Source: Xanthomonas hortorum (GTDB lineage Bacteria; Pseudomonadota; Gammaproteobacteria; Xanthomonadales; Xanthomonadaceae). From it: a stretch of 64,000 nucleotides of DNA. Shown piece after piece: positions 12,078-51,244 of the stretch (the first letter of the stretch is position 1; every line of letters begins with the position of its first letter). Location of the stretch: NCBI RefSeq assembly GCF_024339125.1, contig NZ_CP101417.1, positions 4,475,001 to 4,539,000 on the forward strand, read 5' to 3'. The position numbers and the translations under genes are program-made. The notes below the pieces were generated by a model, which was not told the DNA's origin, searched no databases, and saw only the letters and a program-made list of their open reading frames with translations.

Positions 12078-12185
12078 GGCCCTTGCCCGCCCACCATCGC
12101 AGGACACGCTGCAAGTACGTCCTTGTAAGCTCTTACGCGGCATCCATGCCGCGTAAGGTCCCGCGACGGTGGGCGGGCAAGGACC
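12078..12185 (-). repeat. Composite hairpin element, A-type copy A1
   Basis: 108-bp element. Outer 28-bp arms at 12078-12105 and 12158-12185 pair with three exceptions, each of which is G-U in a minus-strand transcript. The inner hairpin 12132-12157 has perfect 12-bp arms (CTTACGCGGCAT). The segment 12106-12131 between arm and hairpin is the conserved core shared with B elements; here it has several changes. Confidence 0.9.
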
Positions 12186-12321
12186 AGTCAAGATGATCGG
12201 TGTGCATGGTGCAAGCAATGCCTTACGTGGGTTGCTTAGATAACGGCACGCCTGATTCATCTTCTCAATGTAAGCCGAGCGATGGACAAGCTTTAAGAAA
12301 GCAACCGACAAACTCTCTGGT

Positions 12322-12424
12322 GCGGTGTCCTCACCGCTTGCGGGACCGTGTGGCGGCATGGATGCCGCCACCGAGCCTACATGGACGTACTTGCGGCGTG
12401 TCCCGCGAGCGGTGAGGGCACCGC
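12322..12424 (+). repeat. Composite hairpin element, B-type copy B1
   Basis: 103-bp element. Outer 25-bp arms 12322-12346 and 12400-12424 pair with two exceptions, both U-G on the plus strand. The inner hairpin 12350-12371 has 10-bp arms (GTGGCGGCAT). The core at about 12372-12399 is the reverse complement of the A-type core, so A1 and B1 point away from each other. Confidence 0.9.
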
Positions 12425-12623
12425 GCCCTTGACCCACGCAGCGTTTGATCTGGACCTCATCCGCCAAGATGCGGCCGACAAAAACCACTGCACTCACTGA
12501 CAGGCGCTCGCTCGCTAGGTCTTGTTAGCCGCTCTTAGTCTTCGCCACTTTGAGACGAAGCGCTCAAGTTTTGGCGAGCAGAGCCGCTAGCTGGTATGAC
12601 GGTTCGATCCGCACGGCTAACCG

Positions 12624-13922
12624 ATGTCCCCAGGCACCTTACATCGCAATAGTGAAAGCGCAGTCTTGCCGCAACGCGTGTTGCTGGTGGAAAACTCGCG
12701 CACGTTCACCAGCATGCTGCGCGAAGCCATTGAGCAACGTGTGGAACTGCCCGTGACGGTTGTCTCGACCCTGGCCGAAGCGGCACGCGTACTCGACGAA
12801 GAAGATGGTTGGTTCCTGGTCCTGACCGGGCTGGTGCTGGTGGATGGCGACCGCGACAAGGTCGTGGAGTTTTTCCTTTCGCGCAAACTGCCCACCGTGG
12901 TGGTCAGCGGCGTCTACGACGAGGATCTGCGCCAGCGCGTGCTGCAGCAGCAGATCATCGATTACGTGCTCAAAAATGCGCCAGGTGCGATCGAGTATCT
13001 GGCCTGGCTGGTGCAGCGCCTGGAGCGCAATCGGCGTATCGCCGCATTGGTGGTGGACGACTCCTTGTCTGCGCGTACCTATGCCGGCGCATTGCTGTCG
13101 ATGTATGGTTATCGCGTGGTGCTCGCTGCCGATGGTGCCTCTGGCTTGCAGGCGATCGAGCGCGATCCCGGCATTCGCCTGACCATCGTCGATCAGGAAA
13201 TGCCCGGCATGGAAGGCGTGGAATTCACCCGCCGGCTGCGTGCGATCCGCTCACGCGACAAGGTTGCCGTGATCGGCATTTCCGGCAACAGCGATTCGTC
13301 GCTGATCCCGCGTTTTCTCAAGAACGGTGCCAACGATTTCCTGCGCAAACCCTTCTCACGCGAAGAATTCTTCTGCCGCGTGTCGCAGAACGTGGACCAG
13401 CTGGAACTGATCGGCACGCTGCAGGACCTGGCCACCCGCGACTTCCTCACCGGCCTGCCCAATCGGCGCTATTTTCTGGAACAGAGCCAGCGGGTGATCC
13501 CCACCTTGCTGTCGCAGGATCAGACGGTGACTGCGGCCATGGTGGATATCGACCACTTCAAACATATCAACGACACCTGGGGCCACGAAGCCGGGGACCA
13601 GGCATTGCGTGCGGTGGCCGCCTCGGTCTCCGGGCATGCGCGGCCGCAGGATCTGGTAGCGCGCTTCGGCGGCGAAGAATTCTGCCTGCTGGTACCGGGG
13701 CTGGATGTCGCCAACGCCAGCGACTATTTCGAAACCTTGCGTGAGCGCATCAGTGCCTTGCGCGTGCGCGTGGGCGACGAAACGCTGAGCATGACGGTCA
13801 GCATCGGCGTGTGCATCGCCAGCGAAGGCGACCAGTCGCTGCATCATCTGTTGAACGAGGCGGACAAGCACCTGTATCTGGCCAAGGCCGGCGGTCGCAA
13901 TCAGGTTCGTCTGGCAGTCTGA
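12624..13922 (+). CDS. Response regulator with two receiver domains and a GGDEF diguanylate cyclase
   Basis: Cytosolic c-di-GMP synthase of 432 residues. Residues about 17-130 form a receiver-like domain (RVLLVENSRTFTSMLREAI) whose expected phospho-Asp strand reads FLVLTGLVLV, so it looks degenerate. Residues about 135-260 form a full receiver (ALVVDDSLSARTYAGALL, phospho-acceptor Asp190 in IVDQEMPGMEG, Lys in FLRKPFS). The GGDEF domain follows, with active motif GGEEF at 349-353 and the inhibitory site RPQD at 340-343, exactly five residues before it, so product inhibition is expected. The architecture resembles PleD. No partner kinase is adjacent. The start ATG has no strong ribosome site but fits the domain boundary. 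Confidence 0.92.
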   Translation: MSPGTLHRNSESAVLPQRVLLVENSRTFTSMLREAIEQRVELPVTVVSTLAEAARVLDEEDGWFLVLTGLVLVDGDRDKVVEFFLSRKLPTVVVSGVYDEDLRQRVLQQQIIDYVLKNAPGAIEYLAWLVQRLERNRRIAALVVDDSLSARTYAGALLSMYGYRVVLAADGASGLQAIERDPGIRLTIVDQEMPGMEGVEFTRRLRAIRSRDKVAVIGISGNSDSSLIPRFLKNGANDFLRKPFSREEFFCRVSQNVDQLELIGTLQDLATRDFLTGLPNRRYFLEQSQRVIPTLLSQDQTVTAAMVDIDHFKHINDTWGHEAGDQALRAVAASVSGHARPQDLVARFGGEEFCLLVPGLDVANASDYFETLRERISALRVRVGDETLSMTVSIGVCIASEGDQSLHHLLNEADKHLYLAKAGGRNQVRLAV

Positions 13923-13988
13923 TCGAGGCCGGCTGAGCTGCTCAGCAAGCGCCTGCCGGCGCATGCAATCAAGCATGAGATAGCGCTT

Positions 13989-14012
13989 CATCGCGCGTCA
14001 GCGCGCTCCTAC
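13989..14012. repeat. Half REP palindrome overlapping a stop codon
   Basis: Sequence CATCGCGCG...GCGCGCTCCTAC is one end of the GTAG-type REP family seen in full at 24219-24410. Its terminal GTAG, on the minus strand, supplies the TAG stop of the transporter gene that ends at 14009. Confidence 0.8.
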
Positions 14013-15316
14013 ACGAACGGATGCGCTTCGCTGGAGCGGCGCCGCATCGCACGCGCCGCGATCAACGCCAACAGACTCAACACCGCAGCGCCCCCAAGAT
14101 ACTGCCCGACCGCCTGCACGCCATAACGTGCGGCCAGTTGCGTGGCCACATACGGCGCCGGCGCCGCACCCAGAATGCTGGCCAGATTGAACGACAACGA
14201 GGCGCCGGTGTAACGCACCTCGGTGGGATACAACTCGGCCAGCAGCGTGCCGCAGGGGCCGTAGGTCAATCCCATGAAGAAGAAGCCCAACCCCAGGAAG
14301 ATCAACACCTGCAACGGATGATTGGCCTGAAACAGCGGCGCAAATGCCAGCCCGAACACGATGATCGCAATGCTGGCCAGCATCATCGCCAACGGTGCAC
14401 CATGGCGATCACCAAACTTGGCCGAAAGCGGAATGCCGATCGCGAAAAAGACGATACCGGCCATCTGCAGCAGCAGAAACTGCTCCTTGTCGTAGCCCAG
14501 CGTCTTGGTGCCGTAACCCAGCGCGAACACCGTCATCAGATAGAACAGCACAAAGGTGGCGAACGCACCCAGCGTGCCGATGATCAAGGCCGGCCAGTGC
14601 TGGGTGATCACCGTGCCCAATGGCAGGCGTACGCGTGTTTTGTGGTCCAGGGTCTTCTGGAAATCGGGTGTCTCGGTGATGCTCAGGCGCACCCACAAGC
14701 CGGTCAGCACCAGCAATGCACTGGCCAGAAACGGCACCCGCCAGCCCCACTGCATGAACTGCGCATCGTCGAGCACTGCGCCCATGCCCAGGAAGGTGCC
14801 AGTGGACAATAGAAAGCCCAGCGGCGCGCCCAGCTGCGGAAACATGCCGTACCACACGCGTTTACCCGGCGGCGCGTTTTCGGTGGCAAGCAACACTGCC
14901 CCGCCCCATTCGCCGCCCAGACCCAGGCCCTGTCCGAAGCGGCACAACGCCAGCAGCGCGGGCGCAAACACGCCGATCTGCGCGTAGCTGGGCAGCAAGC
15001 CGATCGCCACCGTGGACAAGCCCATCGTCAGCAGCGCCGCCACCAACGTGGCCTTGCGCCCGACCCGATCGCCGAAGTGGCCGAACACGGCCGAGCCCAC
15101 CGGCCGCGCGACAAAGGCGACGGCAAATGTCGCAAGCGACTGCAGCATCGCGGCGCTGCCATCGCCGGCAGGAAAGAACAAGGTGGGGAACACCAGCACC
15201 GCGGCAGTGGCGTAAATATAGAAATCGAAGAACTCGATGGTGGTGCCGATCAAACTGGCGAACAGCACGCGCGCAGGCGAATTGATGGGCGAAGCAAGCG
15301 GCGCGGCAGCAGTCAT
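14009..15316 (-). CDS. MFS transporter, metabolite:H+ symporter (MHS) family
   Basis: Twelve-segment inner-membrane symporter, 435 residues from ATG 15316 (MTAAAPLASP); the upstream ATG at 15337 would add 7 residues. The opening ASLIGTTIEFFDFYIYATAAVLVFPTLFFP and the AVFGHFGDRVGRKATL loop are signature MHS features, as in ShiA, KgtP and ProP. GLGLGGEWGGAVLLATENAP between segments 4 and 5 is also diagnostic. Substrates in the family are organic acids, shikimate and osmolytes; nothing here narrows this. The gene is transcribed away from the repeat-rich region 15317-16307, which must contain its promoter. The last codon and stop fall within a REP half-site. Confidence 0.9.
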   Translation of the reverse strand: MTAAAPLASPINSPARVLFASLIGTTIEFFDFYIYATAAVLVFPTLFFPAGDGSAAMLQSLATFAVAFVARPVGSAVFGHFGDRVGRKATLVAALLTMGLSTVAIGLLPSYAQIGVFAPALLALCRFGQGLGLGGEWGGAVLLATENAPPGKRVWYGMFPQLGAPLGFLLSTGTFLGMGAVLDDAQFMQWGWRVPFLASALLVLTGLWVRLSITETPDFQKTLDHKTRVRLPLGTVITQHWPALIIGTLGAFATFVLFYLMTVFALGYGTKTLGYDKEQFLLLQMAGIVFFAIGIPLSAKFGDRHGAPLAMMLASIAIIVFGLAFAPLFQANHPLQVLIFLGLGFFFMGLTYGPCGTLLAELYPTEVRYTGASLSFNLASILGAAPAPYVATQLAARYGVQAVGQYLGGAAVLSLLALIAARAMRRRSSEAHPFV

Positions 15317-15471
15317 CGTTGATCGGCATCCAGACAAGACAAGATGGCCGATTCTGGCAGATTGCAGCAGCAGTTTGCGCGGACCAACCGGCCTGGGAAA
15401 AGTTACAGGCGTGACCGTCCTCTTTGTGGCAGCAGGGCTGTGAGATCTCGGTTGAAGCGGTGAAGGAGTGC

Positions 15472-15722
15472 GGATAGATCACTTGTAGAGCGGATGATCT
15501 TCGGCTTGGCTGCAGAGCCCTTGCCCGCCCACCATCGCGGGACACGCTGCAAGTAAGGGAGCGTTTGAACAATGCGGATAGATCGCTTGTAGAGCCGACG
15601 ATCTTCGGCTTGGCTGCAGGGCCCTTGCCCGCCCAGCATCGTGGGACACACGGAAAGTTAGGAGCGTTTGGACGATGCAGATAGATCGCTTGTAGAGCCG
15701 ATGATCTTTGGCCTGGCTGCAG
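15472..15722. repeat. Direct repeat array of truncated A-element left ends
   Basis: Two truncated copies precede complete copy A2. Each begins GGATAGATC (15472, 15576; a third, AGATAGATC, leads into A2 at about 15680), so the period is 104 bases. Each runs through CTTGTAGAGC, a GCTGCAG site and the left outer arm (GCCCTTGCCCGCCCA), then breaks off shortly after the GGGACACG core. The joint sequence GGAGCGTTTG...AATG/GATGC is itself shared by both truncated copies. Confidence 0.85.
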
Positions 15723-15830
15723 GGTCCTTGCCCGCCCACCGTCGCGGGACACGCCGCAAGTACGTCCATGTAGGCTCTTACGCGGCATCCATGCCGCGTA
15801 AGGTCCCGCGACGGTGGGCGGGCAAGGACC
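15723..15830 (-). repeat. Composite hairpin element, A-type copy A2
   Basis: 108 bp with perfectly complementary 28-bp outer arms (15723-15750 and 15803-15830) and the perfect inner hairpin with CTTACGCGGCAT arms. This is the best-preserved A copy and the reference for comparing the others. Confidence 0.92.
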
Positions 15831-15886
15831 AGTCGAGATGGTCGGTAGGCATGGCTTTCGACAGAGCAACCAGCAACCTATCTGGT

Positions 15887-15989
15887 GCGGTGTCCTCACC
15901 GATTGCGGGACCGTGTGGCGGCATGGATGCCGCCACCGAGCCTACATGGACGTACTTGCGGCGTGTCCCGCGAGCGGTGAGGGCACCGC
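15887..15989 (+). repeat. Composite hairpin element, B-type copy B2
   Basis: 103 bp. Outer arms 15887-15911 and 15965-15989 pair with two U-G wobbles and one A-G mismatch on the plus strand. The inner hairpin GTGGCGGCAT/ATGCCGCCAC is intact. It is separated from A2 by 56 bp, so the complete composite unit is 267 bp. Confidence 0.9.
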
Positions 15990-16128
15990 GCTCTCGACTA
16001 ACCAGGCTTTTGACGTAAGCATTTGACTGCATCGAACGACGAGACGACTCGAAATCTCGGTCGTCTTGAAGTATTTGCCCTTGCGGATAGATCAGTTCTA
16101 GAGCCGATGATCTTCAGCTTTGCTGCAG

Positions 16129-16236
16129 GGCCCTCGCCCGCCCACCGTCGCGGGACACGCCGCAAGTACGTCCGTGTAGGCTCTTACGCGGCATCCATGC
16201 CGCGTAAGGTCCCGCGACGGTGGGCGGGCAAGGGCC
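16129..16236 (-). repeat. Composite hairpin element, solitary A-type copy A3
   Basis: 108 bp. Outer arms 16129-16156 and 16209-16236 pair with one exception, a G-U on the minus strand. Compared with A2 the outermost pairs change from GGTCC/GGACC to GGCCC/GGGCC, a compensatory change. No B element follows; after the usual AGTCGAGATGGTCGG spacer start the sequence runs into the 3' end of the next gene. Confidence 0.9.
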
Positions 16237-16307
16237 AGTCGAGATGGTCGGTGTGCATGTTGAGAAAGTCGGTGTGCATGGTTGCATGCAAACAACCAGC
16301 AACTTTC

Positions 16308-16586
16308 TTAGTCAACGTGTGGCGCTTGCGCCGTTTCGCGCTGCGCATGCGCTGCCAACCCGGCAGGCGTCAGCAGCGCGAATTGCCGCTCGCCGCGGTC
16401 TTCCACCTGGATCCAACCCGGACCAGGTTGGCCATCAAGACTGGCGCTGCCCAGCCAGGCCAATGTGCGCAGCAGCACGCTCATGCGCACACCCAATTGC
16501 TTGCACAACCGCGCCAGCGACACGCCATCGGGTGCGTCGGCCAGCGCTGTGAGCAGCTGCGCGGTGAGCTGTGGATCAGCGGACAA
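16308..16586 (-). CDS. Small winged-helix-like protein downstream of the molybdoenzyme gene
   Basis: 92-residue protein without a recognised name. Residues about 5-55 (LTAQLLTALADAPDGVSLARLCKQLGVRMSVLLRTLAWLG) look like a winged helix-turn-helix, followed by a beta-wing ending in FALLTPAGLAAH. The start is a TTG at 16586, 11 bases inside the 3' end of the formate-dehydrogenase-like gene, with GGGG just before it, so translation is coupled. It could be a local regulator or, given its small size and constant company, an accessory of the enzyme. Composition matches its neighbours. Confidence 0.7.
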   Translation of the reverse strand: MSADPQLTAQLLTALADAPDGVSLARLCKQLGVRMSVLLRTLAWLGSASLDGQPGPGWIQVEDRGERQFALLTPAGLAAHAQRETAQAPHVD

Positions 16587-18924
16587 GCACGGCCCCGATA
16601 TCGCGTGATGCCGCGTCGGCCGTTTCGGCGCGATGCGGCAGCACGATCACCGGAATCGACTTGGAGGTCGGCGTGCGCGCTTCGTCGGCGAAGCTGGATA
16701 GCGGCACCAGCGCGTTGGTTTCCGGGTAGTAGGCCGCTAGACAGCCGCGCGGGATGTTGTAGTCCACCAGCAGGAAGCGGCGCGCCTCGCGGTGTACGCC
16801 GTCCTCGCACAGGCTTTCCAGGTCCACCCAGTCGCCGGCCTTCATGTTCAACGCTGCGATGTCGGCGCCGTTGATGAAGAGCACGCGGCGCTCGCCGAAT
16901 ACGCCGCGATAGCGATCGTCCAGGCCGTAGATGGTGGTGTTGTATTGATCGTGCGAGCGCGTGGTGGCCAGCGTAAACACCATCTGGTCGCTGTGGCTGC
17001 GACGTGCGCGATGGATCGGGTTGTCGGTGGGCACTGCGTGCGGCTTGAACACTGCGCGCTGTTCGGGCGTCACCCACTGGCGGTCGCGCGCAGTGTTGGA
17101 CAGACGAAATCCGCCCGGCGTGCGCACGCGCTGATTGAAGTCGGCAAAGTCCGGGAATACCTGCGCGATCAGATCGCGCACCCGGTCGTAGTCGCCTACC
17201 AACCAACGCCAGCGGATTGCACTGCGCGGACCCAAGGTGGCCTCGGCCAGGCGCGCCACGATCGCCGGCTCGGACAGCAGGTCCGGAGAGGCCGGCGGAT
17301 TGATGCCGGCCGACAGATGCACCATGCTCATCGAATCTTCCACCGTCACGCCTTGCGAGCCGGCATCCTGGATGTCGATTTCGGTACGGCCCAGGCACGG
17401 CAGGATCAACGCATCGCGGCCATGCACCAGGTGGCTGCGGTTGAGCTTGGTGGTGACATGCACGGTGAGTTCGCAATTGCGCAGCGCGCGATGCGTGGCA
17501 TCGGTATCCGGCGTGGCGGCGGCGAAGTTGCCACCCATCGCAAAGAACACCTTGCCGCGCCCGTCCAGCATCGCCTCGATCGCACCGACGGTGTCGAAGC
17601 CGTCTTCGCGCGGTGGCGCAAAGCCGAACACCGATTGCAGCTTGTCCAGGAATGCGGCCGGCGGTTTTTCGTAGATCATCATCGTGCGGTCACCCTGCAC
17701 GTTGCTGTGCCCGCGCACCGGGCATACGCCTGCGCCGGGGCGGCCCAGATGGCCGCGCAGCAACAGCAGGTTGGTGATCATGTGGATGGTGGCCACCGAG
17801 TGCTTGTGCTGGGTGATGCCCATCCCCCAGCAGGCGATCACGCGCTCGGCGTTGAGATAAATTTCGCCGGCCTTGCGCAGCGCCGTTTCGTCCAGGCCGG
17901 ACTCTTCGACGATGGTGTCCCAGGCTTCCGCATGCACGTCGGCAGCAAACGCGTCGAAGTTGGCGGTGTGTTCGGCGATGAACTCCAGATCCAGCAAACG
18001 CGGCGTGCCATCGCGCTGTGCCTGCGTATCGCGCTCGAGCACATGCTTGATGATGCCCTTCACCGCCGCCAGATCGCCGCCGATCTTGAGCTGGAAATAA
18101 TCCGAGGCGATGCGCGTGGAGCCGTTGTGCAGCATCTCCAGCTTGTCCTGCGGGTCGGCGAACTTCTCCAGCCCGCGCTCGCGCAGCGGATTGAACGCCG
18201 CAATCGCTGCGCCACGCTTGGAGGCCTGGCGCAATTCGCCAAGCATGCGCGGATGATTGGTGCCCGGGTTCTGGCCGAAGATGAAGATGGCATCGGCCAG
18301 TTCGAAGTCGTGCAGCGACACCGTGCCCTTGCCCACGCCGATCTGCGAACGCAGCGCGGTGCCGGAGGGCTCGTGGCACATGTTGGAACAGTCGGGGAAG
18401 TTGTTGGTGCCGAACTCGCGCACGAACAACTGATACAGAAACGCCGCCTCGTTGCTGGTGCGCCCGGAGGTGTAGAAGATCGCCTCGTCCGGCGACGCCA
18501 GGCCATTGAGGTGCCCGGCGATCTGCGCGAAGGCATCGTCCCAGCTCACCGGCACGTAGTGATCGGTGGCCGCGTCGTAGCGCATCGGGTGGGTCAGGCG
18601 GCCCTGCCCTTCCAGCCAGTAATCGCTGTATTGCGACAGCAGACTGACGCTGTGCGCGGCGAACAACTCGTTGCCGGCGCGACGCGCGGTGGATTCGGCC
18701 GCCACGGCCTTGGCGCCGTTCTCGCAGAATTCGAAGGTGGAGGTGTGATCGCGATCGGGCCAGGCGCAGCCGGGGCAGTCGAAGCCGTCCGGTTGGTTGG
18801 CGTGCAGCAGCGTCTTGGCGCCCTGCACCGCGATGTCCTGTTCCATCAGGTGCTTGGCTACCGAGCGCAATGCGCCCCAGCCGCCGGCGGGATTGTCGTA
18901 CTGCTGGATGGTTTTCTTGCTCAT
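16576..18924 (-). CDS. FdhF/YdeP-family molybdopterin oxidoreductase (formate dehydrogenase alpha-like)
   Basis: Molybdenum bis-MGD enzyme of 782 residues from ATG 18924, which has a GGGAGAG site; the frame extends 20 codons upstream inside fdhD and that part is rejected. The N-terminal block NPAGGWGALRSVAKHLMEQ, GFDCPGCAWPD and the molybdopterin contacts FYTSGRTSNEAAFLYQ, CSNMCHEPSG, FGQNPGTNHPRM and VRGHSNVQGDRTM match the YdeP subgroup. That subgroup lacks the long iron-sulphur-rich N-terminus of respiratory enzymes and in E. coli is linked to acid resistance. Its ATG overlaps the stop of fdhD by 4 bp, and FdhD is needed to sulphurate formate dehydrogenases, so formate is the favoured but unproven substrate. 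Confidence 0.87.
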   Translation of the reverse strand: MSKKTIQQYDNPAGGWGALRSVAKHLMEQDIAVQGAKTLLHANQPDGFDCPGCAWPDRDHTSTFEFCENGAKAVAAESTARRAGNELFAAHSVSLLSQYSDYWLEGQGRLTHPMRYDAATDHYVPVSWDDAFAQIAGHLNGLASPDEAIFYTSGRTSNEAAFLYQLFVREFGTNNFPDCSNMCHEPSGTALRSQIGVGKGTVSLHDFELADAIFIFGQNPGTNHPRMLGELRQASKRGAAIAAFNPLRERGLEKFADPQDKLEMLHNGSTRIASDYFQLKIGGDLAAVKGIIKHVLERDTQAQRDGTPRLLDLEFIAEHTANFDAFAADVHAEAWDTIVEESGLDETALRKAGEIYLNAERVIACWGMGITQHKHSVATIHMITNLLLLRGHLGRPGAGVCPVRGHSNVQGDRTMMIYEKPPAAFLDKLQSVFGFAPPREDGFDTVGAIEAMLDGRGKVFFAMGGNFAAATPDTDATHRALRNCELTVHVTTKLNRSHLVHGRDALILPCLGRTEIDIQDAGSQGVTVEDSMSMVHLSAGINPPASPDLLSEPAIVARLAEATLGPRSAIRWRWLVGDYDRVRDLIAQVFPDFADFNQRVRTPGGFRLSNTARDRQWVTPEQRAVFKPHAVPTDNPIHRARRSHSDQMVFTLATTRSHDQYNTTIYGLDDRYRGVFGERRVLFINGADIAALNMKAGDWVDLESLCEDGVHREARRFLLVDYNIPRGCLAAYYPETNALVPLSSFADEARTPTSKSIPVIVLPHRAETADAASRDIGAVLVR

Positions 18925-19766
18925 GCGGGCTCTCCCACGCCAACGCCCAGATCCAGGCGCTGCGGATGGCTGTAAACGACACAATCGTGATCGCGGGCAA
19001 ACCCGATAAGGGTCAGTCCCGCACTGTCGGCCAGGCTGATCGCCAGCGCGGTCGGTGCCGAAATCGCTGCAAGCAGCGGAATCCGGGCCTGCGCGGCTTT
19101 CATGGCCATTTCGTAACTGGCGCGGCTTGTGACAACCGCAAACCCTTGCGCTGCATCGATGCGGTCGCGCGCCAATGCACCAATCAACTTGTCCAGCGCG
19201 TTATGCCGGCCAACGTCTTCGCGCACGTAGCGCACAACCCCTTGCGCATCGGCCCAACCGGCGGCATGCACCGCGCCGGTCTGCGCGGCGATCGGCTGCT
19301 GCGCATGCAATGCATCCAACGCACGCGCCAATGCATCCACATCGATCTGCAGCGAGGATTGCAGCACCGGCGGCACACGCAACACCGCTTCGATGGATTC
19401 GTTGCCGCACACCCCGCAACCGCTGCGTCCATCCAGATTGCGCCGCCGCTGGTCCAACGCGGCGGCGCGCTCGGGTGGAATCTCGATCTGCAGCGAGGCG
19501 CCTTCCAGAAAGGTCTCCACTGCAATCACCCGCAAGTCTTGCGGGTGATCGACGATGCCTTCGCTCAACGAAAACCCAAGGGCGAAATCTTCCAGGTCCT
19601 CCGGCGTGGCCATCATCACCGCGAATGGCACGCCGTTGTAATTGAAGGCGACCGGCATTTCGGCCGCCACCATGTCCTGCACCGTGGCGCTGCGACCGCC
19701 GCGGTGGCGACGGACCGTGCGCACCACACTACCGGGGCGCACGGAGCGGGCAGACGAAGTGGTCAT
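18921..19766 (-). CDS. fdhD: FdhD, sulfurtransferase for formate dehydrogenase
   Basis: Transfers sulphur from a cysteine desulphurase to the molybdenum cofactor of formate dehydrogenase. The 281-residue protein shows PVAFNYNGVPFAVMMATPEDLEDFALGFSLSEGIV, the central SGCGVCGNESIE motif carrying the functional CxxC pair, VREDVGRHNALDKLIGAL and the SRASYEMAMKAAQARIPLLAAISAPTALAI block in two parts. These are the FdhD hallmarks in order. It precedes and overlaps the molybdoenzyme gene by 4 bp and follows the OFA transporter by 6 bp, so all are one transcription unit. The start at 19766 is the first ATG of the frame and matches the normal size. Confidence 0.95.
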   Translation of the reverse strand: MTTSSARSVRPGSVVRTVRRHRGGRSATVQDMVAAEMPVAFNYNGVPFAVMMATPEDLEDFALGFSLSEGIVDHPQDLRVIAVETFLEGASLQIEIPPERAAALDQRRRNLDGRSGCGVCGNESIEAVLRVPPVLQSSLQIDVDALARALDALHAQQPIAAQTGAVHAAGWADAQGVVRYVREDVGRHNALDKLIGALARDRIDAAQGFAVVTSRASYEMAMKAAQARIPLLAAISAPTALAISLADSAGLTLIGFARDHDCVVYSHPQRLDLGVGVGEPA

Positions 19767-19772
19767 CTCATC

Positions 19773-21449: not shown

Positions 21450-21857
21450 TCCGTTCCCCAAAAAATACGATGAGTGCGATGTAGAGCGACCGACAAACGA
21501 CTGCGCGAAGAGTGTGTCAGCGGCCCCGAATACGATTGATGGCTGCGATCGATTGGCGTGTTGCGATAAGGGCAGCAGCGACTACCAGGCCCAACAGGCA
21601 GTCGTCTGGCGCATCATCGGCGATCACTGGATCTTTGCAATGCTTCGACCCAGCCCCATCCCCTGCCCGCGTCCCGCCACAGCCCGCGCCACAAGGCATT
21701 CCCGGAGGTTAGCGGCCGACGCTGCGACTAATTGACTAGTCCGTGCAGGCCGCGCGACGCGTGTCGCGGAATCGGCGTCGCAATCGGGCATTCCCAGGGG
21801 TGACGGGCGACGCGACGCCTGCCGTACAGTCATGCCATCCCCGCGATGGAGCCTGCA
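21450..21857. other. Divergent intergenic region between carrier and aminotransferase genes, 408 bp
   Basis: No gene, repeat or RNA was recognised. It must contain the promoters of the minus-strand OFA-fdhD-molybdoenzyme operon and of the plus-strand aminotransferase. By eye I could not find a convincing pair of promoter boxes or an operator palindrome. Confidence 0.5.
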
Positions 21858-23210: not shown

Positions 23211-23335
23211 TGACAGCGGCTTGATGACGGCTGCGTAAGCGCCCGCGTGTAGCGCCCGGGCGCGTCGCGGTCAAGCGCGCAAAGCCGGAGCAGGCTCACT
23301 ACAATGCCGGCCCCGCACTTCCCCGCAGTTGCCGC

Positions 23336-24190: not shown

Positions 24191-24218
24191 GTGCACGACA
24201 GACCGCAGCGCGTCACCC

Positions 24219-24283
24219 GTAGGAGCGCACCTGGGCGCGATGGGCTTTCCCGGTAACGCCATCGCGCGCAAGCGCGCTCCTAC
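24219..24283. repeat. REP palindrome pair 1 (GTAG type)
   Basis: 65-bp imperfect palindrome beginning GTAGGAGCGC and ending GCGCTCCTAC, with inner GCGCGATGG and CCATCGCGC. It belongs to the GTAG-motif REP family known in xanthomonads and Stenotrophomonas, mobilised by RAYT proteins; no RAYT gene is in the window. Confidence 0.88.
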
Positions 24284-24344
24284 CGAACCATCACGCCGCA
24301 ATCGCGAACGGCAACCCGCGCGCGACCGATCGGTGTAACCACCC

Positions 24345-24410
24345 GTAGGAGCGCCCTCGGGCGCGATGGCGTTACCGGGAAAGCCTCATCGCGCCCGAGG
24401 GCGCTCCTAC
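24345..24410. repeat. REP palindrome pair 2 (GTAG type)
   Basis: 66-bp palindrome with the same ends as the copy at 24219. Its central loop (GGCGTTACCGGGAAAG) is the reverse complement of the loop in the first copy, so the two are inverted relative to one another and could pair with each other across 61 bp. Confidence 0.88.
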
Positions 24411-24481
24411 GACCACGCCAGCAGCGTTGTCAGGCATCGCCGTGGACATGCCATCCGCACGCGACTGGGTACACTCAGGCC

Positions 24482-38400: not shown

Positions 38401-38440
38401 TGCCTGCATTGGTCGCCATCGCGACCAGTGCGGGCATTTA
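38401..38440 (+). terminator. Terminator-like hairpin after the SDR gene
   Basis: 16-base arms TGCCTGCATTGGTCGC and GCGACCAGTGCGGGCA with a CATC loop, 17 bp after the stop. The two non-Watson-Crick positions are U-G in the plus-strand RNA. TTTA follows, a short U-tract. It should end the old yellow enzyme-SDR transcript, separating it from the next oxidoreductase gene. Confidence 0.7.
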
Positions 38441-38615
38441 GGTGAGGATTTACGCATCTGCGTTTGTTGGCACCACTCCACAGATTCAATCGATTCAACG
38501 GCTCACATCGCGGTCAAGCTGCACCCACCGATTTGCTAGTGCAACAGGTGAAGGCGGCCGGGACTCGCAGACGCCCGGCCACCCACACACAACGACAGCA
38601 TTGGACTCGAACCAC

Positions 38616-39617: not shown

Positions 39618-39868
39618 GAAGCCGGATGCACATCCTTCGGCCAAGGTGCCGTACAGGAAAGCCCTACAACATAAGCCGGCCTTAGCACTGTTTCAGCGAT
39701 CGTGCGCAACACGTGCACATGCCGTCTCTGAGTACGGCCACACCTACCGTCTATTCTTCGCAACGATTTGCCAGTCACTTCAACACCGTGAGATCTCGGT
39801 GGTCTTGTCGTGATTGGTCGGAGCGGATGGATCAGGTGTAGGGCGGCTGGTCTTTGGTTTGGCTGCAG

Positions 39869-39976
39869 GGCCCTTGCCCGCCCACCATCGCGGGACACGC
39901 CGCAAGTACGTCCGTGTAGGCTCTTACGCGGCATCCATGCCGCGTAAGGTCCCGCGACGGTGGGCGGGCAAGGACC
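39869..39976 (-). repeat. Composite hairpin element, A-type copy A4
   Basis: 108 bp. Outer arms 39869-39896 and 39949-39976 pair with two exceptions, both G-U in a minus-strand RNA. The inner hairpin is identical to the other A copies. Confidence 0.92.
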
Positions 39977-40031
39977 AGTCAAGATGGTCGGTGTGCATGT
40001 TTTCAATAAAGCAGCCGACTAACTTTCTGGT

Positions 40032-40134
40032 GCGGTGTCCTCACCGCTTGCGGGACCGTGTGGCGGCATGGATGCCGCCACCGAGCCTACATGGACGTAC
40101 TTGCGGCGTGTCCTGCGAGCGGTGAGGGCACCGC
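40032..40134 (+). repeat. Composite hairpin element, B-type copy B3
   Basis: 103 bp, 55 bp after A4, so the composite unit is 266 bp like that at 15723. Arms 40032-40056 and 40110-40134 have three non-Watson-Crick positions, all G-U on the plus strand, including a private C-to-T change in GTCCTGCG. Confidence 0.92.
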
Positions 40135-40281
40135 GCCCTCGACTCACCAGGAAGCGCCATTTGAGGTGAAACAGCACTAAGCCCAAAGGCGGCTTTTTGG
40201 GGCAACACAACGACGTTGACGACTGATTCCAATGAGGATGATGACGAAGCAATCGCTCCGCCATCATCTCGCTGCACACCG

Positions 40282-45291: not shown

Positions 45292-45541
45292 GAGAGAGCT
45301 GGGATGCTCGGTGGAAAACCTGAATTGTACCGATGCGCGATGACGACGCCTTGCTGCATAGCGCAAATCCTCAGCCGTCAGTCGGCGCGCGCAGGCTGCA
45401 AAAGCATTACCGCTGTGTAGTTTCCCCGTAGAGATACGATGCGCGCTGGCGCAGTGGCAGCTGGACCGCCAGATCCGGCAAAGTCCGGTCAGGTGCTTGT
45501 CGCATAAGGGCTTGCGCAGACCAAACTGCGACCGTCAAGTC

Positions 45542-45578
45542 TTTTTAAAAACTAAACTGGACGGTATAGTCTACCGCC
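45542..45578 (+). promoter_or_regulatory. Probable promoter/operator of the tetR-RND operon
   Basis: TTTTTA (45542-45547) and TATAGT (45565-45570) are 17 bases apart and AT-rich against the local background. The -10 box ends 8 bases before the ATG at 45579, so transcription would start at or within a few bases of the start codon. The flanking ACTGGAC...GTCTA has partial two-fold symmetry and is a candidate TetR operator lying on the -10 box. Confidence 0.6.
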
Positions 45579-46238
45579 ATGACCCCCCGTTCCCACCGTG
45601 CTGCCCGGCGCTCGGACTGCGATCGCCGCATCCATGCGGCTGTGCATGCGCTGCTCGCCGAGCGCGGCATGCGGCTGAGCATGGACGCGGTGGCCGAGCG
45701 CGCCGGCTGCTCCAAGCAGACGCTCTATAGTTATTACGGTTGTAAAGAAAACCTGCTGCGCGATGTCCTTCAGGACCATGTGCATCTGGCCACGGTGCCG
45801 CTGGGTACCGCCTCGGGCGAGTTGCGCGAGGATCTGCTGGCCTTCGCACTGGCCCATCTGGATCGCCTGAACCGCCCCGATGTGGTACAGACCTGTCGGT
45901 TGGTGGAAGCCGAGTCGCATCGGTTTCCCGATCAGTCGCAGCAGATCTTCCATGACGGGGTGGTCGGCATGCAGCAGCGCCTGGCGCATCGCTTCGAGCA
46001 GGCGATGGATGCCGGCCAGCTGCGCCATGACGATCCGCACTTCATGGCCGAACTGCTGTTGAGCATGATCGTCGGTCTGGATTTCGATCGGCAACGCTTT
46101 CAGGTTCCCCATCGCGCCGGCCTCCCCGCCAGGCAGCAGTGGGCGCAATTCGCTGTCGACACCTTCCTGCGCGCGTTCGCCGCGGCCGCTGCAACGCCTT
46201 CGCTGTCCCCGCTTTCCTTTCTCGCTTCAAGACCCTAA
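45579..46238 (+). CDS. TetR/AcrR-family regulator of the adjacent RND pump
   Basis: 219-residue repressor. The N-terminal DNA-binding domain reads CDRRIHAAVHALLAERGMRLSMDAVAERAGCSKQTLYSYYGCKENLLRDVLQ in two parts (helix-turn-helix at about 36-58). The C-terminal domain has DVVQTCRLVEAESHRFPDQSQQIFHDGVVG, as in AefR/AcrR-C type regulators. It is the first gene of the tetR-mfp-rnd run; the adaptor gene starts 14 bp downstream. The promoter appears to overlap its own start, so it probably represses itself and the pump together. No Shine-Dalgarno is visible upstream of its ATG, which suits a leaderless transcript. Confidence 0.9.
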   Translation: MTPRSHRAARRSDCDRRIHAAVHALLAERGMRLSMDAVAERAGCSKQTLYSYYGCKENLLRDVLQDHVHLATVPLGTASGELREDLLAFALAHLDRLNRPDVVQTCRLVEAESHRFPDQSQQIFHDGVVGMQQRLAHRFEQAMDAGQLRHDDPHFMAELLLSMIVGLDFDRQRFQVPHRAGLPARQQWAQFAVDTFLRAFAAAAATPSLSPLSFLASRP

Positions 46239-46252
46239 CGGAGTTCCTCCTG

Positions 46253-47560
46253 ATGATTGCCCCGCTCCGCACACTCGGCCTGGCCTGTGCCATCACCGTG
46301 GCGCTCGCTGCCTGCAGCAAGCCCGAACAACAACAGGCGCCGCCGCCGCCGGAAGTGTCGGTGCTGGAAATGCAGCCGCAGACCCTGCCGCTGGAACGCG
46401 ACCTGGTGGGCCGCCTGTCGGCGTACCGCTCGGCCGACGTGCGTGCGCGCGTGGACGGTGTGGTGCTCAAGCGCCTTTACACCGAAGGCACCGACGTCAA
46501 GGAAGGCCAGCGCTTGTTCGAAATCGACCCGATGCCGCTGCGCGCCACGCTGCTGCAGGCCCAGGGCCAGCTGGCCGCCGCCGAGGCGACCTATGCCAAC
46601 GCCCAGATCGCCGCCAAGCGCGCGCGCAGCCTGGCACCGCAGCAGTACGTCTCGCGTGCCGATATCGACAACGCCGAGGCCACCGAGCGCTCGGCCGGCG
46701 CCAGCGTGCAGCAGGCGCGCGGTCTGGTCGAGTCCGCCCGCATCCAGCTCAGCTTCGCCAGCGTCACCTCGCCAATCACCGGCCGCGCCGGCATTCAGCG
46801 CGTCACCGAAGGTGCGCTGGTCGGCTCCGGTGAAGCGACCTTGCTGACCACGGTCGACCAGATCGACCCGCTGTACGTGAACTTTGCGATGAGCAGCGAA
46901 GAACTGGCCGCACTGCGCCAGGCGCAGAGCAGCGGCAATGTGCAGCTCAGCGGCGATGGCAAATCCACCATCAATGTGGAACTGGGCAACGGCACGCAGT
47001 ATCCGCATCCGGGTACCTTGGACGTCTCGGCGGTCACGGTCGACCCGAGCACCGGTGCGGTGTCGCTGCGTGCGACCCTGCCCAACCCGGAGCAGGCACT
47101 GTTGCCGGGTGCGTTCGTGACCTTCAAGGCCAGCCTGGGCCAGCGCAACAACGCGTATCTGGTCCCGCAGCAGGGCTTGCAACGTGACGCCCTGGGCGCC
47201 TTCGTGCTGGTGCTGGGCAAGGACGGCAAGGTGGCGCGCAAGAACCTCACCGTCGATGGCCAGCAAAAGGGCCAGTGGATCGTCACCGGCGGCGTGGCCC
47301 CCGGCGACCAGGTCATCGTCGATGGCGTGCAGAAGGCGAAGGAAGGCCAGCCGGCCAAGGGCGTTGCGTGGAATCCGAACAAGCCGGCGCAAGGCGGCCA
47401 GCCAGGTGCGCCAGGCGCGGCTCCGGCCGCAGCGCAGGGCGGCGACGCACAGGCCGCACCGGCAGCCGACAAGGCCGATGCAGCCGCACCCGCGGCGCAG
47501 CAGCAGCCCAAGCCGGATGCGGCGGCGCAGCCGGCCGACTCCCAGTCAAAGCAGCAGTGA
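46253..47560 (+). CDS. RND efflux periplasmic adaptor (AcrA/MexA family) lipoprotein
   Basis: Membrane fusion protein of 435 residues; ATG 46253 follows GGAGTTCCTCC. The lipobox LACAITVALAAC gives an acylated Cys near residue 20. Then come the lipoyl domain (RVDGVVLKRLYTEGTDVKEGQRLFEIDP), a helical hairpin (YANAQIAAKRARSLAPQQYVSRADIDNAEATERSA), and the beta-barrel (ASVTSPITGRAGIQRVTEGALVGSG). The C-terminal 60 residues after the family end (about residue 375) are an Ala/Pro/Gln/Lys/Asp-rich tail, unusual for AcrA proteins and probably disordered. It is coupled to the pump gene 12 bp downstream. Confidence 0.93.
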   Translation: MIAPLRTLGLACAITVALAACSKPEQQQAPPPPEVSVLEMQPQTLPLERDLVGRLSAYRSADVRARVDGVVLKRLYTEGTDVKEGQRLFEIDPMPLRATLLQAQGQLAAAEATYANAQIAAKRARSLAPQQYVSRADIDNAEATERSAGASVQQARGLVESARIQLSFASVTSPITGRAGIQRVTEGALVGSGEATLLTTVDQIDPLYVNFAMSSEELAALRQAQSSGNVQLSGDGKSTINVELGNGTQYPHPGTLDVSAVTVDPSTGAVSLRATLPNPEQALLPGAFVTFKASLGQRNNAYLVPQQGLQRDALGAFVLVLGKDGKVARKNLTVDGQQKGQWIVTGGVAPGDQVIVDGVQKAKEGQPAKGVAWNPNKPAQGGQPGAPGAAPAAAQGGDAQAAPAADKADAAAPAAQQQPKPDAAAQPADSQSKQQ

Positions 47561-47572
47561 CGGAAACCGGAC

Positions 47573-50500
47573 ATGCCTAAGTTTTTTATTGAACACCCGA
47601 TCTTTGCCTGGGTGGTGGCGATCCTGATCTCGCTTGCGGGCGTGATCTCGATCCTGAATCTGGGTATCGAGTCGTACCCCACGATCGCCCCGCCGCAGGT
47701 CACCGTCACCGCCAACTTCCCCGGCGCCAGCGCCGATACCTCCGAGAAGGCGGTGACCCAGGTCATCGAGCAGCAGCTCACCGGTATCGACCACCTGCTG
47801 TACTTCAACTCGTCCTCGGCCGCCAACGGCCGCGTCACCATCACCCTGACCTTCGAAACCGGCACCGACCCGGATATCGCGCAGGTGCAGGTGCAGAACA
47901 AGGTGTCGCTGGCCACGCCGCGTCTGCCCTCGGAAGTCACCCAACAGGGTGTGGTGGTGGCCAAAGCCAACGCCGGCTTCCTGATGGTGGCCGCGTTGCG
48001 CTCGGACAACCCGTCGATCAACCGCGATGCGCTCAACGACATCGTCGGTTCGCGCGTGCTCGAGCAGATCTCGCGCGTGCCCGGCGTGGGCAGCACCAAC
48101 CAGTTCGGCGCCGAGTACGCGATGAACATCTGGTTGAACCCGGAGAAGCTGCAGGGCTACAACCTGTCGGCCACCCAGGTGCTGACCGCGGTGCGTAACC
48201 AGAACGTGCAGTTCGCTGCCGGTTCGGTCGGCGCCGACCCGACCCCGGAAGGCATCAGCTTCACCGCCACCGTCTCGGCCGAGGGCCGTTTCAGCTCGCC
48301 GGACCAGTTCGAAAACATCATCCTGCGCACCGACAACAACGGTGCCACGGTGCGCTTGAAGGATGTCGCGCGGGTCACCGTGGGGCCGAGCAACTACGGC
48401 TTCGACACCCAGTACAACGGCAAGCCCACCGGTGCGTTCGGTATCCAGCTGTTGCCGGGCGCCAACGCACTGAATGTGTCCGAGGCGGTCGGTGCCAAGC
48501 TCGACGAACTGCAGCCCACCTTTCCGCAGGGCGTGACCTGGTTTGCGCCTTACGAGTCGACCACCTTCGTGCGCATTTCCATCGAGGAAGTGATCCACAC
48601 GCTGGTGGAAGCCATCGTGCTGGTGTTCCTGGTGATGCTGCTGTTCCTGCAGAACTTCCGCGCCACCGTGATTCCCACGCTGGTGATTCCGGTCGCGTTG
48701 CTGGGCACGTTCTTCGGCATGTACATGATCGGCTTCACCATCAACCAGCTGACGCTGTTTGCGATGGTGCTGGCGATCGGCATCGTGGTGGATGACGCGA
48801 TCGTGGTGATCGAGAACGTCGAACGCATCATGAGCGAGGAGCATCTGGAGCCCAAGGCGGCCACCCAGAAGGCGATGACCCAGATCACCGGCGCGGTGGT
48901 GGCCATCACCGTGGTGCTGGCAGCGGTGTTCATTCCCTCCTCGCTGCAACCCGGCGCCTCGGGCGCGATCTACAAGCAGTTCGCGCTGACCATCGCCATG
49001 TCGATGGGGTTCTCCGCGTTCCTGGCGTTGAGCTTCACCCCGGCGCTGTGCGGCGCGTTCCTCAAGTCGACCCATTCGACCAAGAAGAACTGGATCTACC
49101 GCACCTTCGACAAGTACTACGACAAGCTGGCGCATCGCTATGTGGGCGTGGTCGGCAATACCCTGAAGCACTCGCCACCGTGGATGATCGTGTTCGTGGT
49201 GCTGGTGGTGCTGTGCGGCTTCCTGTTTACGCGCATGCCGGGCAGCTTCCTGCCGGAAGAAGATCAAGGCTTTGCGTTGGCCATCGTGCAGTTGCCGCCA
49301 GGCGCCACCAAGATCCGGACCAACGAGACCTTTGCGCAGATGCGTGCGGTACTGGAGAAGCAGCCGGCCGTGGAAGGCATGCTGCAGATCGCCGGCTTCA
49401 GCTTCCTGGGCTCGGGCGAAAACGTCGGTATGGGCTTTATCCGGCTCAAGCCGTGGGAAGAGCGCGATGTGACTGCAGAGGAGTTGATCAAGCAGCTCAA
49501 CGGCATGTTCTACGGCATCAAGGGCGCGCAGATCTTCGTGGTCAACCTGCCCACCGTGCAGGGCCTTGGCCAGTTCGGCGGCTTCGACATGTGGCTGCAG
49601 GACCGCTCCGGCGCAGGCCAGCAAGCCCTGACCCAGGCGCGCAACATCGTGCTGGGCAAGGCGGCGGAAAAGCAGGACACCATGGTAGGCGTGCGCCCGA
49701 ACGGGCTGGAAGACGCGCCGCAGCTGCAGCTGTCGGTGGACCGTGTGCAGGCGCAGTCGATGGGCCTGGAAGTCAGCGATATCTACAGCTCGATCCAGCT
49801 GATGCTGGCGCCTGTGTATATCAACGACTACTTCTCCGAAGGCCGCATCAAGCGCGTCAACATCCGTGCCGACGACCAGTTCCGTACCGGCCCCGAGTCG
49901 CTGCGCAGCTTCTTCAGCCCCAGTGCGACAGCCGTCGGTGCCGATGGGCAGCCGGGAATGATTCCGCTGAGCAATGTGGTCAAGGCCGATTGGACCTACG
50001 CCTCGCCGGCACTTAACCGCTACAACGGCTATTCGGCGGTAAACATCGTCGGCAACCCGGCTCCGGGCGGCAGTTCCGGCCAGGCGATGACCGCGATGGA
50101 GGAGATCGTCAACAACGATCTGCCGCCAGGCTTCGGCTTCGACTGGAGCGGCATGTCGTACCAGGAAATCATCGCCGGTAACGCGGCCACGCTGTTGCTC
50201 GCGTTGTCGGTGGTGGTGGTGTTCCTGTGCCTGGCCGCACTGTACGAAAGCTGGTCGATTCCGGTGGCGGTGCTAATGGTGGTGCCGATCGGTGTGCTGG
50301 GTGCGATCGTCTTCTCGATGCTGCGTGGCCTTCCGAACGATCTGTACTTCAAGATCGGCATGATCACGGTGATCGGTCTGGCGGCGAAGAACGCGATCCT
50401 GATCGTGGAGTTCGCAGTGGAGCAGCGTGCGGCGGGCAAGACCCTGCGCGATGCGACGATGGAAGCGGCACACCTGCGCTTCCGCCCGATTCTGATGACC

Positions 50501-50743
50501 TCGTTCGCCTTCATCCTGGGCGTGCTGCCGCTGGCCATCTCGACCGGTGCCGGCGCCAACTCGCGTCACTCCATCGGTACCGGCGTGATCGGCGGCATGG
50601 TGTTCGCCACCGTGCTCGGCGTGATCTTCATCCCGCTGTTCTTCGTGGTGGTGCGCCGCATGCTGGGCGACAAGCTGGACGAGCAGTCCAAGGAATACGT
50701 CGCGGCACAGGGCGATGCTGGATCGCATCGTCCGGATCGCTGA
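47573..50743 (+). CDS. RND-family multidrug efflux pump (AcrB/HAE1 type)
   Basis: Inner-membrane proton-driven trimeric pump of 1,056 residues, the usual HAE1 size. The N-terminus PKFFIEHPIFAWVVAILISLAGVISIL is canonical. Proton-relay aspartates Asp407-Asp408 lie in GIVVDDAIVVIENVERI, matching AcrB numbering. Porter-domain features VQVQNKVSLATPRLP and FGAEYAMNIWLNP and the C-terminal GLAAKNAILIVEFA with the relay lysine are all present. It needs an outer-membrane channel of TolC/OprM type, which is not encoded here; the pump probably borrows one. A strong intrinsic terminator follows 26 bp after the stop. Confidence 0.95.
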   Translation: MPKFFIEHPIFAWVVAILISLAGVISILNLGIESYPTIAPPQVTVTANFPGASADTSEKAVTQVIEQQLTGIDHLLYFNSSSAANGRVTITLTFETGTDPDIAQVQVQNKVSLATPRLPSEVTQQGVVVAKANAGFLMVAALRSDNPSINRDALNDIVGSRVLEQISRVPGVGSTNQFGAEYAMNIWLNPEKLQGYNLSATQVLTAVRNQNVQFAAGSVGADPTPEGISFTATVSAEGRFSSPDQFENIILRTDNNGATVRLKDVARVTVGPSNYGFDTQYNGKPTGAFGIQLLPGANALNVSEAVGAKLDELQPTFPQGVTWFAPYESTTFVRISIEEVIHTLVEAIVLVFLVMLLFLQNFRATVIPTLVIPVALLGTFFGMYMIGFTINQLTLFAMVLAIGIVVDDAIVVIENVERIMSEEHLEPKAATQKAMTQITGAVVAITVVLAAVFIPSSLQPGASGAIYKQFALTIAMSMGFSAFLALSFTPALCGAFLKSTHSTKKNWIYRTFDKYYDKLAHRYVGVVGNTLKHSPPWMIVFVVLVVLCGFLFTRMPGSFLPEEDQGFALAIVQLPPGATKIRTNETFAQMRAVLEKQPAVEGMLQIAGFSFLGSGENVGMGFIRLKPWEERDVTAEELIKQLNGMFYGIKGAQIFVVNLPTVQGLGQFGGFDMWLQDRSGAGQQALTQARNIVLGKAAEKQDTMVGVRPNGLEDAPQLQLSVDRVQAQSMGLEVSDIYSSIQLMLAPVYINDYFSEGRIKRVNIRADDQFRTGPESLRSFFSPSATAVGADGQPGMIPLSNVVKADWTYASPALNRYNGYSAVNIVGNPAPGGSSGQAMTAMEEIVNNDLPPGFGFDWSGMSYQEIIAGNAATLLLALSVVVVFLCLAALYESWSIPVAVLMVVPIGVLGAIVFSMLRGLPNDLYFKIGMITVIGLAAKNAILIVEFAVEQRAAGKTLRDATMEAAHLRFRPILMTSFAFILGVLPLAISTGAGANSRHSIGTGVIGGMVFATVLGVIFIPLFFVVVRRMLGDKLDEQSKEYVAAQGDAGSHRPDR

Positions 50744-50769
50744 GTCAGGCGTTCGCTGTAAACCAAAAA

Positions 50770-50797
50770 GCCCCGGCACTGCCGGGGCTTTTTTTTG
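50770..50797 (+). terminator. Intrinsic terminator of the tetR-RND operon
   Basis: Arms GCCCCGGC and GCCGGGGC around ACT, directly followed by a run of eight T. The A-run before the stem also makes it usable from the other strand. Confidence 0.93.
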
Positions 50798-50861
50798 TGT
50801 GCTGTAGCGACGAAACGCGATACCCCGTTTTTGTGTGCGCAGCAACGAAACGCGATGACCG

Positions 50862-50897
50862 GTAGGAGCGCACCTGGGCGCGATGGGGCTTTACCGG
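50862..50897. repeat. Half REP element (GTAG type)
   Basis: GTAGGAGCGCACCTGGGCGC followed by GATGGGGCTTTACCGG is the left half of the REP copy at 24219. The right half is absent. Confidence 0.8.
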
Positions 50898-50970
50898 CTC
50901 AGCGTATCGAAGCGGTTCGACAGTGCGAATAGGTCAGTTGTAGAGCTGCTGATCTGCGGCTTGGTTGCAG

Positions 50971-51078
50971 GGCCCTTGCCCGCCCACCATCGCGGGACAC
51001 GCCGCAAGTACGTCCGTGTAGGCTCTTACGCGGCATCCATGCCGCGTAAGGTCCCGCGATGGTGGGCGGGCAAGGACC
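50971..51078 (-). repeat. Composite hairpin element, A-type copy A5
   Basis: 108 bp. Outer arms 50971-50998 and 51051-51078 pair with one exception (G-U on the minus strand). At the position where A1 and A4 have an A-C clash, this copy has changed the right arm to GCGATGG and restored an A-T pair. Confidence 0.92.
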
Positions 51079-51180
51079 AGTCGGGATGGTCGGTGTGCGG
51101 CGTTTTCCAACAGAGCAACCGTTAACCGTGTGCTGCAGTGTCTTCGTTCTTCAAATAACGTCACCAGCCAACTGTCTGAT

Positions 51181-51244
51181 GCGGTGCCCTCGCCGATTGC
51201 GGGACCGTGTTCACGGCGTGTCCCGCGAGCGGTGAGGGCACCGC
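51181..51244 (+). repeat. Composite hairpin element, B-type copy B4, core deleted
   Basis: 64 bp. Both outer arms (51181-51205 and 51220-51244) remain, with two G-U positions and one A-G mismatch on the plus strand. The inner hairpin and most of the conserved core are gone, leaving a simple stem. It lies 102 bp after A5, in the convergent gap before fruR. Confidence 0.88.

Follow-up and report, generated by a model that had tools for sequence, protein, structure and literature searches.

Why should a palindromic repeat carry the mark of constraint on only one of its strands? The question is raised by a 64,000-nucleotide stretch of the Xanthomonas hortorum chromosome (the window; C1:4475001-4539000 of a single-contig 5.44 Mb genome), in which a long hairpin element recurs in two forms, A and B, that a preliminary description had taken for a structured RNA family. 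We find that A and B are dispersed repeats. The family holds, and beyond it lie a conserved loop motif and a wide distribution. From sequence comparison, we lean towards reading the element as a high-copy mobile palindrome, akin to miniature inverted-repeat transposable elements (MITEs) and repetitive extragenic palindromes (REPs), that contains a two-hairpin module of the RsmA/CsrA type and would function as RNA upon transcription of its sense strand. This reading suggests that a jumping repeat has spread predicted binding sites for a regulator.

The inner palindrome of the element, GCGGCATNNATGCCGC, has 300 exact sites in the genome and its reversed control none, so the repeat is not a product of chance. 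We read 109 copies in detail, taken from the window and 49 fetched stretches. Among the matches listed, the arms are of types A and B or belong to a second pair of types that occur together, for example at L002, L008 and L040. Where neighbouring copies lie less than 500 bp apart, 40 of 54 pairs are divergent, 10 convergent and 4 tandem, and the core-to-core spacing clusters near 136 and 216 bp. A and B had been said always to diverge; this is true of all four pairs in the window but not in general, and one window copy, A3, has no partner.

Read on the sense strand (the strand used in the preliminary description), copies share a common plan: a variable outer arm, GACC or something similar, hairpin 1, GAGC, hairpin 2, GCG and the matching outer arm. 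The core is an outer stem of nearly free sequence enclosing hairpin 1 (C-ANGGAN-G) and hairpin 2 (GCN-UAC-ANGGAC-GUA-5nt-N'GC). Across 50 aligned, distinct sequences, pairing is found in 91.7% of cells, compared with a mean of 62.8% after shuffling; 21 of 25 pairs have changed on both sides, with 354 double-change cells against 101 shuffled. Covariation scores 0.699, whereas shuffling gives 0.162 and slid controls reach 0.126 at most. The alignment excludes eight of the 52 distinct remote copies, whose cores are shifted or unusual (L062, L085, L093, L098, L101, L122, L124, L146); of these, L062 is without the GGA of loop 1, L093 without its A, and L098 carries a five-base loop, AGGAT. Two genomes supplied a second set, 57 distinct sequences that were fitted to the model; this set has one genome in common with the first, is 96.9% paired and scores 0.670 against 0.182 shuffled. 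Individual stems illustrate the same point. The UAC/GUA stem of hairpin 2 becomes UCC/GGA in this genome and GAC/GUC in another, GCC/GGC around the loops becomes GGC/GCC, and in an AT-rich genome (G129) the stems take forms such as UUUUC/GAAAA. The structure proposed for the family is thus strongly supported by covariation, as is strand-specific constraint by the G-U excess described below; RNA is a candidate for the selected molecule.

The structure extends far beyond one genus. Within the genus, 34 of 35 genomes contain the two-hairpin pattern, against one of 26 sampled outside it; the hairpin-2 pattern occurs in 8 of 274 genomes sampled across the class (this genome counted), and among the matches listed from a scan of named genomes are Marinobacter, Stenotrophomonas, Rheinheimera, Methylomonas, Methylotuvimicrobium, Cellvibrio, Idiomarina, Alteromonas, Pectobacterium and other genera. 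A covariance model built from 50 copies, 44 remote and 6 from this genome, matched 53 of the 274 class genomes and 47 of 222 genera at E<=1e-4, this genome again counted. In one genome at least 150 copies were scored. Two remote loci, L075 and L078, have extra GGA hairpins in a row (for example gtacatggatgtac, gcacaaggatgtgc, ggcaggatgcc) in the 70 or so bases upstream of the match, giving, by eye, three or more CsrA-type sites per element.

The loops of both hairpins keep A-N-G-G-A-N while the stems change freely. Because remote copies were found through hairpin 2 only, with loop 1 outside the search pattern, loop 1 in these copies is a fair sample. Its A, G, G and A are conserved in 49, 50, 49 and 50 rows of the 50-row alignment, with T, G, A or C as N. 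The loop-1 region contains ANGGA in 59 of the 66 remote copies with paired arms (four more have AGGA and three neither) and in 7 of the 22 without paired arms, which look degraded; these make up 88 distinct remote copies. In this genome, where copies were found through loop 1, loop 2 retains CANGGANG in 105 of 109, N taking all four bases, and in 104 of 105 copies the spacing between the two GGA motifs is 19 nt. Copies taken from two further genomes with the covariance model, itself biased towards GGA, gave 57 distinct rows; all 57 read NNGGAN in loop 2, and in 56 the first letter is A. Among 16 rows read from G129, one has lost loop 1 and one has a loop 2 cut to AGGA.

This pattern resembles CsrA/RsmA sites. 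According to a review, RsmE contacts an ANGGAN hexaloop in which N is variable, the CsrA consensus from systematic evolution of ligands by exponential enrichment (SELEX) is RUACARGGAUGU, and a CsrA dimer can span two sites separated by 10-63 nt, with an optimum above 18 (PMC7652899). Hairpin 2 (UACANGGACGUA) matches the SELEX consensus except for a U-to-C change and the free N. ANGGA in hairpin loops, usually at two or more sites, marks a CsrA-binding RNA; two such loops are present in the comparative structure, although single-sequence folds lack hairpin 2. The simplest account of the loops is predicted binding of the RNA by RsmA/CsrA.

The features of the window are as follows.

12078-12185, minus strand (the sense strand): hairpin element A1; loops ATGGAT at 12142-12147 and AAGGAC at 12119-12124.
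12186-12318: A-B spacer of unit 1.
12319-12427, plus strand: hairpin element B1; loops ATGGAT at 12358-12363 and ATGGAC at 12381-12386.
15454-15658, minus strand: two tandem truncated repeats of direct-repeat family D1, with a period of about 104 bp and one A arm each (15517-15543, 15620-15647).
15723-15830, minus strand: hairpin element A2, arms perfectly paired; loops at 15787-15792 and 15764-15769.
15831-15883: A-B spacer of unit 2.
15884-15992, plus strand: hairpin element B2; loops at 15923-15928 and 15946-15951.
16129-16236, minus strand: hairpin element A3, without a B partner; loops at 16193-16198 and 16170-16175.
39869-39976, minus strand: hairpin element A4; loops at 39933-39938 and 39910-39915.
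39977-40028: A-B spacer of unit 3.
40029-40137, plus strand: hairpin element B3; loops at 40068-40073 and 40091-40096.
50971-51078, minus strand: hairpin element A5; loops at 51035-51040 and 51012-51017.
51079-51179: A-B spacer of unit 4.
51180-51245, plus strand: B4, 66 bp, with B-type arms and the two-hairpin core deleted.

The five A copies (starting at 12078, 15723, 16129, 39869 and 50971) are each 108 bp long, as originally described, with 28-bp arms. The arms of A5 had been seen as improved over those of A1 and A4, and the G-U counts agree: one in A5, two in A4 and three in A1. The four B copies had been assigned to the same plan, and B1-B3 do follow it; in the 66-bp B4 both the inner hairpin and the 26-nt segment are missing. 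The gene immediately downstream of unit 1, at 12624-13922, encodes a GGDEF (diguanylate cyclase) response regulator. Genes of the GGDEF type are often controlled by RsmA/CsrA.

The mismatches in the arms carry the evidence for one strand. The earlier count for the window was 16 G-U and two A-G; our recount of 28 arm pairs in nine copies gave 228 Watson-Crick pairs, 20 G-U, no A-C, two A-G, one C-T and one G-G. Strand-symmetric neutral decay should yield G-U and A-C at 1:1. Instead, with arm scoring that favoured neither, the ratio is 214:5 among 105 distinct elements of this genome and 66:11 in 66 of 88 remote elements, the other 22 having been set aside below the arm score, most of them without an intact loop 1. 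The reported bias therefore holds at scale, and equal frequencies are not seen. These counts take in related copies and so are non-independent; a fairer but small count is that of private changes, in which a pair is Watson-Crick in the consensus and differs in one sequence only. With 4 of 65 A copies omitted for more than 14 differences from the consensus, this gave 20 G-U against 4 A-C (p=7.7e-4), together with 17 private mismatches of other kinds. The excess lies on the sense strand in each gene context of one count, including copies antisense to both neighbours (15:4), and in a second count the pooled ratios are 95:13 in genome G309 and 20:4 in G149; the one small exception, in the second count, is two convergent G149 copies with no G-U and two A-C. 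The step from strand bias to selection on an RNA stands only in part: strand-specific constraint is supported, but folded single-stranded DNA would give a similar bias, and orientation to neighbouring genes looks random.

If the sense strand is transcribed, the two loops could bind one RsmA/CsrA dimer. Bound copies might then act as RsmA/CsrA decoys, or as local sites in 3' untranslated regions (UTRs) that affect stability or termination. The divergent A-B layout would provide one sense module per unit whichever direction is transcribed, and the sense module could meet competition from its antisense partner, which would base-pair with it (56 nt at 93% complementarity in unit 2).

Several observations weigh against such an RsmA/CsrA module. 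When A2 and B1 are folded singly for minimum energy, hairpin 2 does not take its comparative form and hairpin 1 is left with a loop of four bases; for A2 the antisense fold is about equally stable, and the outer stems and hairpin 1 exceed the SELEX hairpins in length. Other arm mismatches are also common (50 in this genome, 47 remote), and including private pairs from a non-Watson-Crick consensus gives a ratio of 21:7 (p=0.006). In the Xanthomonas RNA RsmU, RsmA still bound after all four predicted GGAs had been replaced (PMC7694677). The missing hairpin 2 in particular led us to lower our estimate for an RNA module slightly and to raise that for recognition of single-stranded DNA, which is the main rival. 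Here the element would be mobile purely at the DNA level, in the manner of REPs and their REPIN pairs or of IS200/IS605 insertion sequences; its sense strand would fold as single-stranded DNA, the loops would be read by a transposase or another DNA-binding protein, and the likeness to CsrA sites would be coincidental. We consider this unlikely, though far from negligible. Folded single-stranded DNA is also expected to tolerate G-T, and the stable antisense fold of A2 suits it, as do the high copy number, the mostly head-to-head pairing, the random orientation and the turnover between species; for REPs, head-to-head dimers and placement between co-directional or convergent genes are on record (PMC3733652). 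Set against this, it would take a large coincidence for two hairpins to agree with CsrA sites in both their variable and their fixed loop positions.

Evidence on mobility bears on the same rival. Of 30 orthologous loci read, the 5 closest contain unit 1; the other 25 lack it, and there the next gene follows 85-101 bp on. At the orthologue of unit 3 in one species (L233), B and A occur in reversed order; units are rebuilt at the same intergenic site. In G309, 27 of 39 subfamily-a copies lie within a unit of 155-162 bp with TATACC...GGTAT ends, whose inverted repeats run on into the outer arms. Such TA-ended units resemble substrates of DDE transposases, which would act on double strands and leave no strand asymmetry, and along the G309 chromosome the matches listed, binned by eye, have no clear strand preference with respect to the replication axis; both points count against single-stranded DNA recognition. 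A second G309 subfamily (L267-L306) has arms like TCGACCGACAGGC/CCTGTCGGGCGA and conserved flanks that are not inverted-repeat-like, so one core travels in at least two different units within this one genome. Motifs of the GCGGCTAACAAAA type occur near units in 9 of 50 stretches, including position 12013 of the window. At unit 1, one such motif marks an edge of the segment that relatives lack and, by eye, an inverted counterpart sits near the other edge; they are possibly the ends of a larger carrier element.

This genome has a single PF01797 gene (L001:1408-1911), a Y1-transposase like the REP-associated tyrosine transposases (RAYTs), and it is flanked on both sides not by the element but by GTAGGAGCG repeats; element motifs are absent from its 3.3-kb locus, L001. 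This too speaks against the DNA-level alternative. The GTAGGAGCG repeats are of REP type (window 24219-24402, 14004, 31555 and 50862; L001:1300-1966) and resemble the known Xanthomonas REP. Reported Xanthomonas REPs have a sequence other than that of the element (PMC2817692). We rejected the identification of the element as a RAYT-associated REP: the RAYT here is flanked by GTAGGAGCG, and the element is a 108-bp two-hairpin structure with 28-bp arms.

Gene context also counts against an RsmA/CsrA module, at least one acting in cis. With genes called by our own simple open-reading-frame scorer and no published gene finder, neighbour orientation looks random: 20 copies are antisense to both neighbours, 18 sense to both, 16 convergent and 10 divergent, after 28 edge copies and 6 inside open reading frames were set aside. 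The corresponding numbers for G309 and G149 together are 13, 9, 9 and 5, a count in which two loci overlap, with 32 edge and 8 inside copies set aside and 3 of 79 dropped. About one third of placed copies are thus antisense to both neighbours, which makes a cis UTR role hard to reconcile; a cis 3'-UTR model as the sole explanation is weakened by this random orientation.

Placement near gene ends raises another alternative, an orientation-independent terminator or stabiliser of mRNA 3' ends, for which any strong hairpin would suffice. A stabilising role of this kind has been proposed for E. coli REPs. Many placed copies do begin a few tens of bases or less from a stop codon, whichever way they face, and convergent placement exceeds divergent (16 vs 10; 25:15 when combined with G309 and G149, p=0.15). 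Such a role, however, needs neither the conserved ANGGAN loops nor the GAGC...GCG segment, and where both neighbours run opposite, the sense strand of the element keeps the G-U excess. Moreover, a T-rich tail follows the 3' arm in only 1 of 66 remote copies, and a scan of window positions 11990-16500 found no terminator-like site at the elements. We regard this explanation as improbable.

We think it equally improbable that each copy is a self-standing small RNA (sRNA) gene with its own promoter, a dispersed titrating RNA like CsrB or RsmZ. Sense-strand constraint in most gene contexts would fit, as would, by eye, the longer relatives L075 and L078 with their extra GGA hairpins. Promoter evidence, which would also help an RNA module, goes the other way: in two remote genomes the mean best upstream sense score is 6.6, against 6.5-7.1 in three control directions (n=79), and window positions 11990-16500 contain no promoter-like site. 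The near absence of T-rich tails adds to this.

Association with the regulator gene itself is weak. This genome has one rsmA/csrA gene. In a cross-table compiled by eye, CsrA is present in 49 of 53 model-positive and 186 of 221 model-negative genomes (one-sided p=0.086), and in good-quality genomes the numbers are 41 of 42 and 171 of 194 (one-sided p=0.048). Four of the 53 model-positive genomes have no CsrA match over the cut-off; three are 67-88% complete and one 98%. One incomplete CsrA-negative genome carries 45 copies, with loops nearly all intact in the 16 rows read.

If sense copies do bind RsmA/CsrA, some genomes would hold several hundred potential sites beyond the known sRNAs, and models of Csr/Rsm titration would have to count them. 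It would also provide a selective reason for a strand-specific fold in some bacterial palindromic repeats, a question for REP-like elements. A bolder view, which we offer tentatively and think rather doubtful, is that selfish palindromes across the class captured a host-regulator module, creating a distributed, evolvable RsmA/CsrA sponge of up to hundreds of two-site hairpins per genome, rewiring 3' UTRs and linking transposition to the Csr/Rsm regulon; lineages would have amplified it independently, with unrelated arms and the same loops.

How does the element compare with what is known? At gathering thresholds Rfam has no match to the element in the window or in 11 remote loci, where only 6S RNA was found, outside the element; at lax thresholds (E up to 5 or 10) three stretches gave mostly microRNA-hairpin matches, which we treat as chance. 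Nor is the element described among the papers listed by our literature searches, beyond which most subscription journals lie, and core oligonucleotides searched in paper text matched two papers, both on cancer.

The nearest described RNA is TwoAYGGAY (RF01731), itself proposed to bind CsrA. It is listed from human gut, gamma-Proteobacteria and Clostridiales (PMC2864571). RF01731 was absent among the weak Rfam matches in the three stretches and had no gathering-score match in the window or the 11 remote loci. The element differs from TwoAYGGAY in its ANGGAN loops with any N, its copy number of up to hundreds, its mobile appearance and its conserved GAGC...GCG segment. With the sRNAs CsrB and RsmX/Y/Z/V/W it shares several GGA hairpins per RNA, and sub-threshold matches to RsmW (12.5 bits; gathering 52) and RsmV (6.7 bits; gathering 100) lie over the first hairpin. 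CsrB and RsmX/Y/Z/V/W are discrete sRNA genes. RsmU of X. campestris, a 3'-UTR-derived sRNA, is likewise a GGA-containing Xanthomonas RNA, likened here by description and not by sequence; it is reported to bind RsmA and is presented as a novel sRNA from a single locus (PMC7694677).

On the DNA side, the element resembles REPs, bacterial interspersed mosaic elements and the GTAG and CGTC repeats with RAYTs in being palindromic and intergenic, in forming head-to-head pairs and in having G-T pairs in its stems (PMC3733652). REPs, however, are 20-40 bp long with an unpaired terminal GTAG or CGTC tag, whereas the element measures 108 bp and has two hairpins in its core, and other repeats accompany the RAYT-like gene of this genome. 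Like MITEs, it is non-coding, about 110-160 bp long and randomly oriented, with long inverted arms, presence/absence differences and, in one relative, TA-ended units. Long palindromes like the enterobacterial repetitive intergenic consensus (ERIC) share these features. What sets the element apart from MITEs and ERIC is its conserved, covarying core, common to many genera and set between unrelated arms.

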